Shown here one piece after another: positions 538 to 13,781 of a DNA stretch of 49,630 nt. Under the pieces are notes generated by a model, which was not told the DNA's origin, did no database searches, and saw only the letters and a program-made list of their open reading frames with translations. The stretch spans positions 1-49,630 of the forward strand of contig JAFSNY010000061.1 in assembly GCA_017447305.1 (NCBI GenBank), read 5' to 3'. Made by a program: the position numbers and the translations under genes. The stretch comes from Bacilli bacterium (GTDB lineage: Bacteria > Bacillota_I > Bacilli_A > RFN20 > CAG-826). Positions within the stretch are counted from its first letter, which is position 1. The number at the start of each line of letters is the position of its first letter.

Positions 538-1422
538 CTATTTTCCACTATTTAAGATAGATTCAAACACTCTATAATTTGTGTCATCTCTGCCACAGAA
601 AATAGCAAACTCAACTTTTTCAAAATAATACTTATTTAATAGATCTTTAAACACTTTCGCAACGATATGTGGGTCGTTATGGAACGCTCCACAACCAAAT
701 GCACCTAAGATTAAGACTTCCGCTCCTTTTGCTTGAGCGAGTTTAAATATTTTTTCAATTCTTTTTGTCAAAACTTCTTTTTCTTTTTCTTCAATCATCT
801 GAGAAGTATCAAACAGATGGGGAGCTGCTGAAACGATAACATCAACTTTGTGTCTTTCTTTTAACATTCTTGGCGCTTCATTATCATTCTTAAAGATAAC
901 AATGTCTGGGAGATAGATTAAATCATCCGTTCCCCAGCAATCAAGATCTCTGTGCTTGCTATGATATAGTGGCACATCTTTAAATAAGCAAGGGAATAAG
1001 GTTGATATGCGGCATAACGCTTCTTCTTGTGCGTTTGCGTGCCACGGATTTCCTCCTGGATGAGAACTACTAGCGAAATCTAAAACCGCAACCTTTTTAC
1101 CTTTATACTCATCCGCCATCGATGCTTCATAGCTTCTCTTTTTAGATACGATAATGTTACTGGTAGATTTATGATTAAAATCATAATCTATTTGTTCGTT
1201 TTCATAGATAATGCTTTGATTCTTAAGTGTCTCCTCGATAGAGTTGGACAACGCATCATCAAAAACACATTTACCATATGTATGGTTCATGACAAAATGA
1301 GTTAATCTCCCATAATTGCCTCTGATTTTTGATTCTTCTATAAGAAGATCTAGTTGTTGATGATATTCTTCATCAGAAAGCACTCCATCGATGAGAAACA
1401 GATTTTTATATTCGATATCCAT
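538..1422 (-). CDS. TIGR02452/DUF2263 family protein, microbial PARG-like macrodomain
   Basis: 294 aa, the usual size for TIGR02452 proteins. That family carries a C-terminal macrodomain related to poly(ADP-ribose) glycohydrolase, which removes ADP-ribose from proteins. The sequence shows VAVLDFASSSHPGG followed by the QEE motif (AQEEALCR) at about residues 115-137, matching the PARG signature of a glycine cluster followed by QEE. Later come an IVSAAPHLFD segment and a VLILGAFGCGAFHNDP segment near residues 200-250, typical of the macrodomain phosphate-binding loop. The glycine cluster reads GGN rather than the usual GGG, so the active-site loop is slightly unusual. It starts 2 nt after the membrane protein stop and shares its operon. 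Role in ADP-ribosylation reversal is inferred from the family; the target is unknown. Confidence 0.8.
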   Translation of the reverse strand: MDIEYKNLFLIDGVLSDEEYHQQLDLLIEESKIRGNYGRLTHFVMNHTYGKCVFDDALSNSIEETLKNQSIIYENEQIDYDFNHKSTSNIIVSKKRSYEASMADEYKGKKVAVLDFASSSHPGGNPWHANAQEEALCRISTLFPCLFKDVPLYHSKHRDLDCWGTDDLIYLPDIVIFKNDNEAPRMLKERHKVDVIVSAAPHLFDTSQMIEEKEKEVLTKRIEKIFKLAQAKGAEVLILGAFGCGAFHNDPHIVAKVFKDLLNKYYFEKVEFAIFCGRDDTNYRVFESILNSGK

Positions 1423-1424
1423 AA

Positions 1425-2462
1425 TTAGCCCCTTTCTTTATTTAAGAATAATCGATCAATTCCAGTATAGATGTAATAAGGTAAGGCGACAAATAAGACA
1501 ATAATATAATCAAGTAAGAAATAGGTAATGACGAACATGAAGTTCTCGTTTTCTTTTATCGCATTAACCATTCCCACTACTTCAAATGAGAATAAAGTAA
1601 TAATAATCAATGATAAAACAAACGATAAATCAATCTTTGGTAAGAATGAATTAAATATAATAATCGCGATAAACGCTAATAATAAGGCCATTCTAAGGAC
1701 TTTAAGGCCATCGTAGAAGGAATAATCACTACAAGCGAAATATCCTAAACGAATGATTGATACATAAGCAATAAAGTAATACACAAATCTAGATTTCACA
1801 ATAGTGAGAAAAGAGAAATACCTTGATTGAATATAATTTAGTTTATAAGCATTAATGATGTAAAAAACGAGGCTTAGAAGAGGAATAAAGTAAAATGGTA
1901 CATTTGGTAGGTAATTAGAAGAAAAGACGTAGAAATCCCCGATTATAAAGGAAAGAGTGATGATTATTATTCCGCTTATTAGTAGTAAGAAATAATCAAA
2001 ATTAATCACAAGGCGATATTCATCAATTAATCTATCTACGTGAATATTTTCCGCGGTGTTTCTTAAAGCAAAATACTCAATGACCGCAGATATTGATAAA
2101 AAGCCTATTCCTAAGATATCAAATTGAAAGAAGAAGGCTTTGTGAGCAAATTCATAATAAATATTAGAAAAGAATGGAATCACTAAAAGAATCAGATAAC
2201 AAACTTTAATAAAGAATGATGATCTTTTAAGTAAATAATTATTCTTGAAAAAGGATAATGTCGTTAAAGTTAGACAAGCCGCTCCAAAAAGATATGCAAT
2301 ATAGAAGAATGATGCCTTTATTCCTAAATTAAAGAAATGCTCTGCAACAACATATTCTTCACCTTCTTCTCCGGCCTTAACAAAAATAAGAAGGAAAATA
2401 AATATCAAAGAGATAAGTAAAAACCCTAATGAAAATAGATATAGTTTCTTTGATTTTTCCAT
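1425..2462 (-). CDS. Polytopic membrane protein, unknown function (345 aa)
   Basis: The protein has about nine to ten strongly hydrophobic segments separated by short polar loops, with a Lys-rich N-terminus (MEKSKKLYLF) and a basic tail. No transporter or enzyme motif is recognisable. I start it at the ATG at 2460-2462: an in-frame extension to 2543 would run through the intrinsic terminator of the upstream structured RNA (2502-2529). It is followed after 2 nt by the PARG-like gene, so the two are almost certainly co-transcribed. The large structured RNA ends 40 nt before its start, so read-through past that terminator could also supply transcript. Function unknown. Confidence 0.65.
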   Translation of the reverse strand: MEKSKKLYLFSLGFLLISLIFIFLLIFVKAGEEGEEYVVAEHFFNLGIKASFFYIAYLFGAACLTLTTLSFFKNNYLLKRSSFFIKVCYLILLVIPFFSNIYYEFAHKAFFFQFDILGIGFLSISAVIEYFALRNTAENIHVDRLIDEYRLVINFDYFLLLISGIIIITLSFIIGDFYVFSSNYLPNVPFYFIPLLSLVFYIINAYKLNYIQSRYFSFLTIVKSRFVYYFIAYVSIIRLGYFACSDYSFYDGLKVLRMALLLAFIAIIIFNSFLPKIDLSFVLSLIIITLFSFEVVGMVNAIKENENFMFVITYFLLDYIIVLFVALPYYIYTGIDRLFLNKERG

Positions 2463-2501
2463 AACACATCTATTATAGATGAATATACCTCTAAATAAGA
2501 T

Positions 2502-2529
2502 AAAAAAAAGTATCAGCTCACGCTGACAC
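2502..2529 (-). terminator. Intrinsic terminator of the 1.7-kb structured RNA
   Basis: On the minus strand GTGTCAGC pairs with GCTGATAC (one G-U pair) around a GTGA tetraloop, immediately followed by eight T residues (2502-2509). This fixes the strand of the non-coding RNA as minus. Confidence 0.88.
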
Positions 2530-2577
2530 GTAACCGTTGCCATGTGCAGGGGATTTCACCCTGCGCATTGGACCAAA

Positions 2578-2877
2578 AGTTAAGTTCCTTCGACTGGTGA
2601 TGCTTCTTGTTGACAACTCGTTTTGAACTGCTTAGCGAGTTGGTGGCCAGCTTCCCTTAGTTGTTAACTTCAGGGCTTTCATCCTCTTCGTCATGTCCGG
2701 TGCTGGGATTACTCTGTCAAACTTTAACACAGATGCCAGTGAGAGCAAGCTCTCAGGGAGGATCGTACCGATAATTACCACAGGGGTAATTCTTTGCTAG
2801 TGCAACCAGTTAATTGAAGCTCTTTAATCTTCCAAGATTCCATCAGCTGTTTAATGGAAATGGTTGGCTTACCTAGT
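2578..2877 (-). repeat. Structured-RNA unit 5 (type A)
   Basis: Closing helix CAACCA (2861-2866) with TGGTTG (2803-2808), hairpins AATTACC/GGTAATT and TGAGAGC/GCTCTCA, core TCTGT/ACAGA. Pseudoknot partners CGGT/ACCG and ATCCTC/GAGGAT. Type A hairpin CAACTCG/CGAGTTG with loop CTAAGCAGTTCAAAA. Confidence 0.8.
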
Positions 2878-3177
2878 CTTAAGTTCTTTAGACCATTTCT
2901 TCGCGGAATTTCCTTTAGCTGGGTTCTTCCGCTATCGCCACACGTTAGATTGAGTAATGTGGTTTAGGTTTTGCTATCTTGATTTGCAAGATGGCGTCTT
3001 TGCCTCTTCGTCTTGTGTCCGGCGGTGGGATTACGCTGTTAAACTCTAACTCAGCGACCACTGTAACAGGGAGGTGTGCCGTTTAGTTAATCCGAGGATT
3101 AACAAGCCTTTGCGATCATTAACCAGAACATTTAATTCTGGAAGCCTTACTATCAACGTCGTTTTAGCGGTGACCGT
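2878..3177 (-). repeat. Structured-RNA unit 4 (type B)
   Basis: Hairpins CCAGAA/TTCTGG, GTTAATCC/GGATTAAC and ATCTTG/CAAGAT, core CGCTG/CAGCG. Type B hairpin CCACA/TGTGG with loop TTACTCAATCTAACG, followed by a GCGGAA/TTCCGC stem. Its closing helix is the most degenerate of the five. Confidence 0.78.
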
Positions 3178-3492
3178 CTTTACTTGAAGGCTAAGTTTTA
3201 GTTCTCATTCACTTAACTTGGCTCTAACACCGGTTAAGCTTATTTCGCGTTTTGAGCTGACGTAGCGCGAAGGTGAGGGATGAGTAATTAGCTGACATCT
3301 TCCTCTTCGTTCCGTGTCGGGCGGTGGTCTGATGCTGTCAAACTCTAATTCAGCAGCCACTGTAGCAGGGAGGAATGCCCTGGCTAATCTCTTTTAAGGT
3401 TAGCCGCGCTAGAGCGATTATTAATCTAGAAGATTTAGGATCTAGAAGGCGCGTTATCAACTGATATACCTGCGCTAATCGACTTATCTAGT
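3178..3492 (-). repeat. Structured-RNA unit 3 (type A)
   Basis: Closing helix CGATTA (3476-3481) with TAATCG (3415-3420), outer CTAGA/TCTAG, hairpin with arms GGCTAA and TTAGCC, core TGCTG/CAGCA. Pseudoknot partners are GGGC (3377-3380) with GCCC (3319-3322), and TTCCTC (3370-3375) with GAGGAA (3300-3305). Type A hairpin TCGCG/CGCGA with loop CTACGTCAGCTCAAAA. Confidence 0.8.
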
Positions 3493-3810
3493 CTTAAGTT
3501 TTGTAAGCCGTTTCTTTTCAGGAGCTCGTCAGGGTTTAGCTGATGTCTTCTGATATCGTCACACGTTAGGTTGAGTAATGTGACTTAGGCTTGGCTCGAG
3601 GGATTGACCAGGAACTTATTTGCACCTCTTCGACATGTCCGGTGATGGGATTACGCTGTTAAACTCTAACTCAGCAACCATTCTAGGAGGGAGGTACGAC
3701 CGGAACTCGATATCTCTATCAAGTTGATGCCAGAGCAATCGTTGGTCTCTTCAGTTTAAGAAGGGAGGGCGGCCTATCAACGTTGGCTTGTCGCCGATTG
3801 GCTTATCTGG
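3493..3810 (-). repeat. Structured-RNA unit 2 (type B)
   Basis: Closing helix CAATCG (3795-3800) with CGATTG (3736-3741) and outer CCAGA/TCTGG, which replaces the CTAGA/TCTAG seen in unit 3. Pseudoknot partners are CGGT/ACCG and ACCTC/GAGGT. The 3' part has the type B hairpin GTCACA/TGTGAC with loop TTACTCAACCTAACG. Confidence 0.8.
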
Positions 3811-4140
3811 ACTCGACTCTATGACCTGCTCGCGGATTTTTTAAGGAAAGGGGGATCCGCTCTTCCCACGTTTTGAGCTGCTTTAGCGTGGGGATTGGTC
3901 GCGTCTCAAGTTATTGGCTTGAGATTGCCTGTTTGGCTCTTTTATCCTCTTCGTTTCGTGTCGGGCGATGGGCTTACGCTGTTAAGTCTGAACTCAGCGG
4001 CCACTAATGATTTCTCATCATTGAGGATCGTGCCTGTAATCACCGAAGTGATCCGTGCTAGTGCAATCGTTAGTCTAGGACTTTTAAGTCCTAGGTTACG
4101 TCCTATCAACTTGGTTTTAACGTCGATTGACTGACCTAGT
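3811..4140 (-). repeat. Structured-RNA unit 1 (type A)
   Basis: First unit in transcript order. Closing helix CAATCG (4124-4129) with CGATTG (4064-4069), hairpin CTAGGAC/GTCCTAG, hairpin ATCAC-ttcg-GTGAT, hairpin AATGAT/ATCATT, core CGCTG/CAGCG. Its 3' part holds the type A hairpin CCCACG/CGTGGG with loop CTAAAGCAGCTCAAAA. Confidence 0.8.
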
Positions 4141-4208
4141 CTTGAGTCTAATAAGTATCTATCAATACTTATTATCCCATCCAAGCGGTTGTCCGTTTGG
4201 ATTAGTAC

Positions 4209-4237
4209 ATTATCCCCTTATTGAAATATTATTACAA
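4209..4237 (-). promoter_or_regulatory. Sigma-A promoter of the structured RNA
   Basis: Minus strand: -35 TTGTAA (4232-4237), exactly 17 bases of spacer, -10 GATAAT (4209-4214). The predicted start lies at about 4202-4204, immediately before the first 10-bp hairpin of the RNA. Upstream (4238-4380) the DNA is almost pure A/T with repeated A- and T-tracts, as expected of a strong UP element. Confidence 0.72.
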
Positions 4238-4420
4238 GCATTTTTTAAAAATTTTTTTAACTTTTTTTATTTTTCTCGATTCAATCAAAGAATATTTTTT
4301 AAATTTTTTTTGAAAAAAAATAAATATTTATATAAAAAAACACAAAATTTTTAATTTTTTTGCGTTTTTTTCTCTATATATACGTATACGCTATGTATGC
4401 GTCCTACTTTCTTAAATAAT

Positions 4421-5179
4421 TTATAGTTTCCATTTATTTAAATACAAGTCTGGGTAATTAAAAACTTTTAAATAAATATCTTTGAAATCGATTAATAAAG
4501 AATAAACGGGTAATTTTCTAAATTCTTCTTTACCGATGAACTTTTTATATGTCGAACATAAGAAGTCAAAAATCTTGCAAGTATAAGAAATTAAGTTAAT
4601 CCAATATTCTTCTTTGTTTTCTTTTTCTTGTTCACTGGTAAACGGATGAGTTTCCACGCTTCCATACGCGGGAGGATTAAGAAGATCTTTTAATTCTGGA
4701 ATGAGTTCGTCTAATTTAGCTTGTTCCACGATTTGAGCGATACCGTATTTTCCATTAGCCCAATCTCTAATCCAACCATAATCAAAAAATTGATCGACTT
4801 TGCTTGTGATTCTACGATTGTCTCGATAAAGTTTTTTATCGATATCATCCATTTGAGAATATTTATATTTTTCACCAAGAAGTTTAATGTATTCGAGAAG
4901 CATTGTTCTATTATTAGATAGAACATAAGTCATCGCAACCTCTTCAATCGCGCTTTTAAGCATATAGGAAGCTTGGATATAGGAATCGCTTCTAAGAAGA
5001 TAGCAAGCCGCGTTAATCGTTTTATATGATTCAGCGATTAAATTATAAAATGGCCTTTTATCTTTACTTTCTTCAACACGGATATAGTAATCAAAAATGA
5101 TGAAAGGCATCTCAGAAGAAACTTCCGTGATGCAGTCACACATCTTATCTAATGACCTGATTAATTCTTTTCTATCCAT
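4421..5179 (-). CDS. Hypothetical alpha-helical protein (252 aa)
   Basis: A soluble, predominantly helical, acidic protein with no signal peptide. The stretch AESYKTINAACYLLRSDSYIQASYMLKSAIEEVAMTYVL (about residues 49-87, quoted here only in part: AESYKTINAACYLLRSDSYI) has the look of HEPN/DUF5677-type helical bundles, but I see no catalytic RxxxxH motif and would not assign it. It starts 3 nt after the PAP2 phosphatase stop and is the last gene of the RDD-PAP2-252 aa operon. No clear terminator follows; the AT-rich promoter region of the structured RNA lies directly downstream. Confidence 0.65.
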   Translation of the reverse strand: MDRKELIRSLDKMCDCITEVSSEMPFIIFDYYIRVEESKDKRPFYNLIAESYKTINAACYLLRSDSYIQASYMLKSAIEEVAMTYVLSNNRTMLLEYIKLLGEKYKYSQMDDIDKKLYRDNRRITSKVDQFFDYGWIRDWANGKYGIAQIVEQAKLDELIPELKDLLNPPAYGSVETHPFTSEQEKENKEEYWINLISYTCKIFDFLCSTYKKFIGKEEFRKLPVYSLLIDFKDIYLKVFNYPDLYLNKWKL

Positions 5180-12151: not shown

Positions 12152-12282
12152 TATAATTCAGTTAAATTCGGCAAACCCGAAGTAATTCGGCGACGCAAAG
12201 CTAGAGGGTCCAAGTAATTGGATAGCCAGTTGCACTTATCTTTTATTTCGGTGCTGCGTCGTGTCGTATTGCATCATTTTTT
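12152..12282 (+). promoter_or_regulatory. Promoter -10 and c-di-GMP-I (GEMM) riboswitch with terminator
   Basis: A TATAAT box (12152-12157) precedes a leader with the GEMM-I landmarks: GGCAAACC, a P2 stem CGAA-GTAA-TTCG whose GNRA-type loop docks in P3, the invariant GACGCAAAGC (12192-12201), and the P3 hairpin TCCAA-GTAA-TTGGA. The expression platform can form GGTGC (12250-12254) with GCATC (12271-12275) followed by T6 (12277-12282), and TGCGTC (12255-12260) can instead pair with the aptamer GACGCA (12192-12197). That gives mutually exclusive folds for c-di-GMP sensing. It controls the diguanylate cyclase directly downstream. Whether the ligand turns expression on or off cannot be told by eye. 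Confidence 0.88.
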
Positions 12283-12290
12283 ATTCTTAT

Positions 12291-13781
12291 ATGGAAGAAA
12301 AAGTTAATAACAAGAAAAGAAAGCTAAGTTTCAACATCGAATTTAAAGCAACTCTCATCATTATCGTTTTAGCGTTATTGATTGTTTTCACTTCGATGAT
12401 TTATTTCTCTATTACCGAGAAGAGAGAAAACGAAAGTAGATATAAGAATCTCGCAAATAACTTATCTAGTACGGTTTCAGAAGTTGTTAATGTTCCAGAT
12501 TATATCGAATTAAGAGATAAGGTTCTTGATATATACGAACAACAAGAAAAGAAACCAACCAGTGAAGAATGGGGAAGCCCTGATTGGAACGAATATACAT
12601 CTAAATTCGCTGAGATTTATGAAGATCCAGTTTTCATTAGAACTAGAGATTTCTTAAGAAAACTTGTCGACGCTAATCCGAATAACGATGTTAATTGTTT
12701 TTATTTAATATATGTCGATGTCGCTCGTGAATTATGCGTCTATATCGTCGACAGCGCGCCTGATGAAGAGGCATGTCCGCCTGGATGTATTGATACATTC
12801 TCTGACGTTAATAAACCAGTATTAGAAGATCCAGAATATGGTTTCCCTGCTTACACTAATAATAGTGCGGAATACGGATGGTTAGTTACCGCAGGATTTG
12901 CTATTCATAATGGTAATGAAGTTGTGGGCTATGCGGTTGTTGATATTTCGATGGCGGCCATTAACGCTAAACACCTAAATAACATTGCAACATTATTCCT
13001 CTTCTTATTCCTCTCAGTTGTTGCGGTTTGTATTATTGGTATTATCATTGTTCATCTTGTTTTCGGAAACCCAGTTAGAAAACTTAAAAGAGTCGCGGAA
13101 TCATATGATAAAGATGATCCAGAAACCACTCATAGAAACTTCGTTAATCTAAACATGAACACTCATGATGAAGTCAGCGATTTAGCAGAATCAATGAAGA
13201 AGATGGAATCTGATGTTTATAACCAGATCAATCAACTTATTTTGATGAACAAAGAATTAGAAGAATCACAAAGAGAAGCACGTGAAATGACCGCTTTAGC
13301 GAACAAAGATGGTTTAACAGGCGTGCAAAATAAGATTGCTTATAACAGAGAAGAAGCAAGAATCAACGCTTTAATCAAAGAAGGACAAATGGAGCCTTTC
13401 GGAGTCGCGATGATTGACCTTAACTATTTAAAGAACACGAATGACGAATTCGGACATGATGCGGGTGATGATGCATTAATTAAACTCGCTCACCTTATCT
13501 GTATCGTCTTCGCTCACTCCCCAGTTTATCGTATCGGAGGAGATGAATTCGTTGTTATCTTAACCAAGCATGATTTTAATCATCGTAAGTCATTAATTAA
13601 GAGCTTTAACATCAAGAATAAACAATTAATGGATGATGACAATTTACCAGATGCAGAGAGAATCTCCGCGGCAATAGGGTACGCGATATTCAACCCAAAA
13701 GAAGATACATCAGTCGAAGACGTCTTTAAACGCGCGGATAAATTCATGTATGAAAGAAAGCGCAAAATGAAAGGCGAATAG
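12291..13781 (+). CDS. Membrane-bound diguanylate cyclase (GGDEF)
   Basis: 496 aa from the ATG at 12291. A longer frame with GTG at 12261 would overlap the riboswitch terminator and is less likely. The layout is a short cytoplasmic N-terminus, a transmembrane helix (about residues 20-42), an extracellular sensor of roughly 190 residues of Cache-like size, a second helix (about 232-256), a HAMP-like linker and coiled coil, and a C-terminal GGDEF domain. The catalytic RIGGDEF (about 414-420) and the metal/nucleotide segment IDLNYLKNTNDEFGHDAGDD are intact, so it should make c-di-GMP from two GTP. The RxxD inhibitory site that normally stands five residues before GGDEF is absent (sequence HSPVY there), so product inhibition at that site is not expected. 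There is no clear Shine-Dalgarno between the terminator and the ATG. Confidence 0.9.
   Translation: MEEKVNNKKRKLSFNIEFKATLIIIVLALLIVFTSMIYFSITEKRENESRYKNLANNLSSTVSEVVNVPDYIELRDKVLDIYEQQEKKPTSEEWGSPDWNEYTSKFAEIYEDPVFIRTRDFLRKLVDANPNNDVNCFYLIYVDVARELCVYIVDSAPDEEACPPGCIDTFSDVNKPVLEDPEYGFPAYTNNSAEYGWLVTAGFAIHNGNEVVGYAVVDISMAAINAKHLNNIATLFLFLFLSVVAVCIIGIIIVHLVFGNPVRKLKRVAESYDKDDPETTHRNFVNLNMNTHDEVSDLAESMKKMESDVYNQINQLILMNKELEESQREAREMTALANKDGLTGVQNKIAYNREEARINALIKEGQMEPFGVAMIDLNYLKNTNDEFGHDAGDDALIKLAHLICIVFAHSPVYRIGGDEFVVILTKHDFNHRKSLIKSFNIKNKQLMDDDNLPDAERISAAIGYAIFNPKEDTSVEDVFKRADKFMYERKRKMKGE

Follow-up and report, generated by a model that had tools for sequence, protein, structure and literature searches.

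Near one end of the window (the whole 49,630-nt stretch of DNA analyzed here, from a Bacilli bacterium), about 1.7 kb carries no credible protein gene. A sequence-only reading had proposed that the minus strand of this interval specifies a large, stand-alone structured RNA of five tandem units, its class not recognized, which might fold into a ring or cage or display five binding sites for one partner. What is this RNA, how is it built, and what might it do?

Gene limits and the conserved core

No ORF longer than 80 aa was found wholly within 2540-4200, and a protein-coding origin was rejected on this ground; the predicted promoter and terminator are present where the sequence-only reading had placed them. 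The minus strand from 4203 to 2502 is a noncoding RNA gene of about 1.7 kb, with five tandem units and its own promoter and terminator.

2502..4203, minus strand: whole noncoding RNA gene, five units; 5′ end placed from the promoter
4209..4237, minus strand: sigma-70-type promoter, TTGTAA-17-GATAAT, of a form that recurs at most homologous arrays
4241..4258, minus strand: A-tract (UP-like) element AAAAAAATTTTTAAAAAA, immediately 5′ of the -35 element; pattern unique in the genome
4179..4202, minus strand: 5′ terminal hairpin, helix 1 of the covariation structure
2502..2529, minus strand: intrinsic terminator, hairpin plus T8

Most homologous arrays have the same arrangement: a TTGNNN element, a spacer of 17-18 nt, a -10-like hexamer (e.g., CATACT), and an A-tract directly upstream. 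A search with the combined promoter and A-tract pattern gave one match in the 1.59-Mb genome, at the array. Of 41 arrays, 38 carry a T-run after the conserved CGGTT tail; in a few arrays, the promoter or terminator is missed by such simple patterns. The promoter type suggests strong constitutive expression. The G+C content of the RNA gene is 41-50%, as compared to about 29-36% for neighboring genes. The RNA is sometimes co-oriented with the next gene, which would suit a cis-regulatory leader. However, its own terminator comes first, and no downstream gene is common across genera, so cis-regulation of a neighbor was rejected. A degenerate repeat-protein gene would likewise conflict with the missing ORF and with paired bases that covary. 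Either origin is very improbable.

The RNA is not without a known relative. A search of Rfam shows that RF02946 (cow-rumen-1, 61 nt) matches all five units at 66.4-78.7 bits (E 1e-13 to 4e-17), in each case over the full 61-nt model and above the gathering cut-off of 53.4. The cores are spaced by 323, 321, 299, and 322 nt.

3946..4007, minus strand: RF02946 core of unit 1, 66.4 bits
3625..3684, minus strand: RF02946 core of unit 2, 75.4 bits
3302..3363, minus strand: RF02946 core of unit 3, 71.9 bits
3003..3064, minus strand: RF02946 core of unit 4, 78.7 bits
2683..2742, minus strand: RF02946 core of unit 5, 73.5 bits

No other Rfam family matches within 2300-4500 at E up to 1. The description of the class as not recognized therefore falls: An existing family, of Rfam type sRNA gene, accounts for 61 nt of every unit, an outcome that answers in part to what the sequence-only reading had itself listed as counting against its proposal. 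The scan covers the core of each unit but leaves the whole RNA undescribed. The Rfam model pairs only the P4/P5 hairpin and contains no pseudoknots, whereas the genes found here span about 1.05-1.7 kb in three or five modules, and the three-module RNA has about 250 proposed pairs. The model is too short to contain helices P2 and P3 or a long-range pseudoknot, and its inner 3-bp helix uses bases that covariation assigns to that pseudoknot. Only this 61-base core is catalogued in Rfam; the original description of cow-rumen-1, reportedly by Weinberg et al. in 2017, may already note tandem occurrence.

Module anatomy and pseudoknots

The structure was derived from alignment A1, which comprises 30 nonredundant three-unit RNAs. 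A 248-pair structure was written from RNAalifold, a covariation scan, and inspection, and 86.6% of cells are paired over these pairs. Changes on both sides are seen in 173 of 248 pairs, as compared to 118 in shuffled alignments and 66-81 in slid versions, although helices were found and counted on one alignment, so that these counts lean toward the structure. The covariation score is 0.365, versus 0.165 for shuffles and at most 0.096 for slid versions; the covariation scan itself supplied the long-range pairs that enter the count, so the comparison is not a blind test, and the slid and shuffled controls take its place. Covariation, on which the sequence-only reading had staked its proposal, is very strong and exceeds both controls. 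Its central claim of a large, structured, stand-alone RNA of tandem units is supported by this massive covariation, and the RNA as a whole is absent from Rfam.

Each unit consists of a branched P1 arm, helices P2 and P3, the cow-rumen-1 hairpin (P4/P5), linker hairpins, and a pseudoknot. P2 is mostly CGGY/RCCG in classes 2 and 3 (defined below), GGG/CCC in class 1, and UGGY/RCCA in most single-unit RNAs. P3 is CCUC/GAGG and crosses P2; the crossing helices around each core are 96.2% paired. In the pseudoknot, a hairpin loop (GARYUU) pairs with a hexamer located 120-220 nt downstream, just 5′ of the P1 helix of the next unit, and the acceptor for the last unit lies in the 3′ tail. All five loops in the window have a partner, and the first has changed letters on both sides (GACUU/GAGUC).

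3984..3989, minus strand: pseudoknot 1 loop AGACUU, pairing as GACUU with GAGUC
3815..3819, minus strand: pseudoknot 1 acceptor GAGUC
3661..3666, minus strand: pseudoknot 2 loop GAGUUU
3496..3501, minus strand: pseudoknot 2 acceptor AAACUU
3340..3345, minus strand: pseudoknot 3 loop GAGUUU
3193..3198, minus strand: pseudoknot 3 acceptor AAACUU
3041..3046, minus strand: pseudoknot 4 loop GAGUUU
2881..2886, minus strand: pseudoknot 4 acceptor GAACUU
2719..2724, minus strand: pseudoknot 5 loop AAGUUU
2582..2587, minus strand: pseudoknot 5 acceptor GAACUU, in the 3′ tail

In the three-unit alignment, the pseudoknot helices (15, 29, and 44) are 99.4, 98.3, and 96.7% paired, with compensatory changes. 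Taken alone, the pseudoknots are 98.1% paired with eight pairs changed on both sides, as compared to 7.8-60.9% paired in slid versions. A fully complementary 6-mer occurs in the acceptor window for 114 of 130 loops, versus 17% with shuffled windows; a looser test, which accepted five of six complementary bases, has a high chance rate and was excluded as evidence. The hexamers are A/U-rich and alike between units, such that register swapping is possible. The last unit finds its acceptor in its own 3′ domain, and single-unit RNAs carry an acceptor of their own; we therefore read the pseudoknot as closing each module. Because the acceptor abuts the next P1 helix, the pseudoknot probably also stacks modules on each other.

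Unit classes, unit numbers, and genomic setting

The five units are not equivalent. Across genera, there are three ancient, position-specific unit classes that have been kept distinct. Classes 2 and 3 form separate clades in a 131-unit tree, with SH-aLRT values of 99 and 100; when the 117 units from three-unit arrays are classified segment by segment, 115-116 are placed correctly. Assigned by the unit tree and by segment classification (unit 3 by the latter), the units in the window are as follows.

3815..4178, minus strand: unit 1, class 1, up to its pseudoknot acceptor
3496..3814, minus strand: unit 2, divergent, class 1/2-like, grouping with unit 2 of G217
3193..3495, minus strand: unit 3, a chimera with a class-1 body and a 5′ flank of class-3 type
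2881..3192, minus strand: unit 4, class 2
2582..2880, minus strand: unit 5, class 3, with the 3′ domain

The standard form has three units and a length of about 1.05-1.1 kb, as seen in 39 complete arrays (not cut by a contig end). Five units occur in three genomes: G000 and G212 (contig C53) have complete arrays, and G016 has at least five units, the first lying at a contig end. No complete two- or four-unit array was found among arrays uncut by contig ends. The five tandem minus-strand units of the sequence-only reading are thus real but exceptional. Its picture of a pentamer of equal protomers is not supported, given the prevalence of three-unit arrays, the distinct unit classes, and a unit order, 1-2-(3/1 chimera)-2-3, that looks like a product of recombination.

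In each of the three five-unit arrays, unit 3 joins a class-3 5′ flank to a class-1 body, although the flank assignment in G016 is weak (0.56 versus 0.51). Such a chimera is what unequal crossover would leave, and crossover would explain the odd unit numbers. Judged from unit order, the five-unit form looks like the product of unequal crossover of two three-unit genes, joining units 1-2 of one to units 1-2-3 of the other. The linker types alternate as L1-L2-L1-L2-L1′, in accord with the crossover order.

3865..3893, minus strand: linker hairpin L1 after unit 1
3558..3584, minus strand: linker hairpin L2 after unit 2
3244..3271, minus strand: linker hairpin L1 after unit 3
2938..2962, minus strand: linker hairpin L2 after unit 4
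2614..2642, minus strand: L1-like hairpin of the 3′ domain after unit 5

Two or three copies of the RNA gene are present in some genomes (G182, G212, and G218). In G212 and G218, two arrays lie close together in the same orientation, affording a substrate for unequal crossover. A single-unit sibling of the RNA, roughly 300 nt long and built on the same core, occurs in five genomes; the siblings inspected have a matching acceptor (e.g., GGACUU with GAGUCC in G043 and in contig C34 of G218).

L042, 8178-8240, minus strand: single-unit sibling
L112, 7277-7337, plus strand: single-unit sibling
L128, 3728-3788, minus strand: single-unit sibling
L129, 98-160, minus strand: single-unit sibling
L130, 1674-1735, minus strand: single-unit sibling

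These counts bear on whether the RNA could be a sponge or decoy, in which each unit sequesters one molecule of a regulator, as in CsrB/C or 6S, and the number of units tunes capacity. A core repeated one, three, or five times with conserved segments (GGACAYGA and CGAAGAGG) would fit, as would the multiple gene copies. However, a decoy role leaves the three distinct classes unexplained, a multihelix fold of roughly 300 nt per unit far exceeds the need of a decoy site, and only odd unit numbers are seen. We consider a decoy quite unlikely.

Among the genomes sampled, the RNA was seen in one family only. RF02946 is present in 44 of 224 genomes of the host family, and our own 94-nt model (R1) finds the same 44 genomes. 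R1 has no match in genomes of other families of the order, and samples of the class and phylum added no genome outside the host family. Named records with the conserved class-3 pattern are, by their titles, mostly metagenome-assembled genomes of Bacilli/Erysipelotrichaceae from the rumen or other ruminant sources. Records of Akkermansia, Kiritimatiellae, and Pelomonas (L054, L057, and L068) also matched the pattern but contain no RF02946 match, and were dropped as chance matches or not this RNA.

Gene order around the array is conserved within a genus, and no neighbor gene shared across genera was found. The neighbors looked at are ordinary genes or genes without a family, and a common neighbor gene as partner was rejected. 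No copy of the RNA was found in G208, a relative of another RNA-bearing genus; the genes flanking the site are collinear with those of G209 and G214, but nothing of the transcription unit lies between them. This clean absence at a syntenic site indicates that the unit is independent and dispensable, and that it comes and goes as a whole. Such patchy, all-or-none distribution, together with a large conserved fold containing pseudoknots, might suggest a catalytic RNA or the remnant of a self-splicing or mobile element. Against this, no Rfam ribozyme or intron matches the RNA, no conserved ORF accompanies it, it has its own promoter and terminator, and synteny is kept within the genus, making such an origin improbable. 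A phage or plasmid origin was rejected, as phage, plasmid, and viral-contig records gave no match. In the flanking sequence covered, 2 of 41 loci have a tRNA, at a distance of about 5 kb, and the other 39 have none.

Several other features were noted around these loci. In G023 (L162, after the c14 gene, reverse complement), what appears by eye to be a resolvase-like gene occupies the locus at which relatives have the RNA, and this position may thus be a hot spot of variation. A conserved intergenic stretch (GTCAGAGGTGGAGAACCAGTG...CTCTGGCTGAC, then a T-run) lies at about 1600-1720 of L161 and also upstream of the array in L125; it is about 92% identical between the relatives, has no Rfam match, and may be another small RNA. 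The siblings in G043, G136, and G218 are followed by a convergent small gene (containing NNHPAYIVDEEGNVFVFHRVTHSKTSGGKKNW; read in its 3′ part only in G136) with no Pfam match. In the window, a microbial-type PARG gene (538-1422, minus strand) lies near the 3′ side of the array. Farther away, a c-di-GMP-I riboswitch (RF01051, 52.5 bits; 12160-12237, plus strand) directly precedes a GGDEF diguanylate cyclase gene (12261-13781, plus strand), an arrangement in which product feedback is possible.

Proposed role and comparison with known large RNAs

Comparison among relatives establishes a conserved structured RNA gene with defined limits, module anatomy, and class identity, and with gain and loss of modules. 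We somewhat favor a chromosomal, stand-alone, trans-acting giant modular RNA that, by analogy, would serve as a multidomain scaffold. Each module comprises a P1 arm, P2 and P3 crossing around the P4/P5 hairpin, linkers, and a loop tied to a downstream site that abuts P1 of the next module. The standard molecule has three nonequivalent modules (1-2-3) and a closing 3′ domain, and the five-module form probably arose by unequal recombination of two three-module genes (2 + 3 modules). The modules may together form a single rigid chain that offers a partner, be it a protein or an RNA, several surfaces for docking within a discrete particle of ribonucleoprotein or of RNA. As the sequence-only reading had suggested, the chain could also display five sites that bind one partner. 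More tentatively, the molecule could be a single-chain RNA particle that evolves like a repeat protein, with head-to-tail domains closed by pseudoknots and two domains added at a time, from three to five alongside single-domain siblings, by recombination of neighboring genes, yielding a scaffold of gut bacteria. We know of no comparable RNA repeat architecture in any described bacterial RNA class.

A different way to build a particle would be an RNA-only homo-oligomer, in which several copies form a hollow cage and the repeats represent protomers that have become fused. Cages of this kind are known for ROOL and GOLLD (PMC12286853), and the RNA here is likewise large, ornate, and intergenic, lacks an obvious protein partner, and repeats a module that grows in odd numbers by recombination. 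However, none of the Rfam models for ROOL, GOLLD, and OLE matches it at E up to 1, and the missing phage, plasmid, and viral matches and the scarcity of nearby tRNAs also argue against a cage. In addition, the loop contact repeated in every unit finds its partner within the same chain, where the last loop pairs with the 3′ tail; as a hairpin also caps the 5′ unit, no free sticky end is seen. With its loops satisfied within the chain, a pentameric ring or cage is not indicated, and we regard a cage as unlikely.

The analysis turns a 61-nt Rfam motif into part of an RNA that, once ribosomal RNA and introns are set aside, ranks among the largest structured RNAs of bacteria, and covariation supports the map of its modules, crossing helices, and pseudoknots. 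The natural series of one, three, and five units, together with the chimeric crossover unit, makes growth of a giant RNA by domain duplication directly testable, including whether unit number sets particle size or the number of partners, and provides defined constructs for cryo-EM beside OLE, ROOL, and GOLLD. An RNA of this size that grows in odd numbers of units is a strong candidate for a large-RNA machine of a new kind.

Among known RNAs, ROOL is also a large, ornate, stand-alone bacterial RNA with an unknown function, and it is likewise known from the rumen. In the ROOL that was studied, 659 nt long, eight identical chains build a cage; the class occurs in phages and prophages, often near tRNA islands (PMC12286853). 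The RNA here, in contrast, has no sequence match to ROOL and is not on phage, plasmid, or viral records. GOLLD, another giant structured RNA of unknown function, is phage-linked and tRNA-associated, with a 3′ region that is conserved and a 5′ region that varies (PMC12286853); it shares giant size and structure with the RNA here but no Rfam match. OLE is about 600 nt and works with known proteins (PMC9723947, PMC11332333). Like OLE, the RNA here is a large, lineage-restricted Gram-positive RNA, but it has no match to the OLE covariance model. To our knowledge, OLE has no tandem modules. CsrB/CsrC and 6S-type decoys have short repeated sites or a single fold, whereas the RNA here has large, nonequivalent domains, with a repeated core in units of three diverged classes; even so, an RNA that carries its binding unit several times over would work on the same principle.
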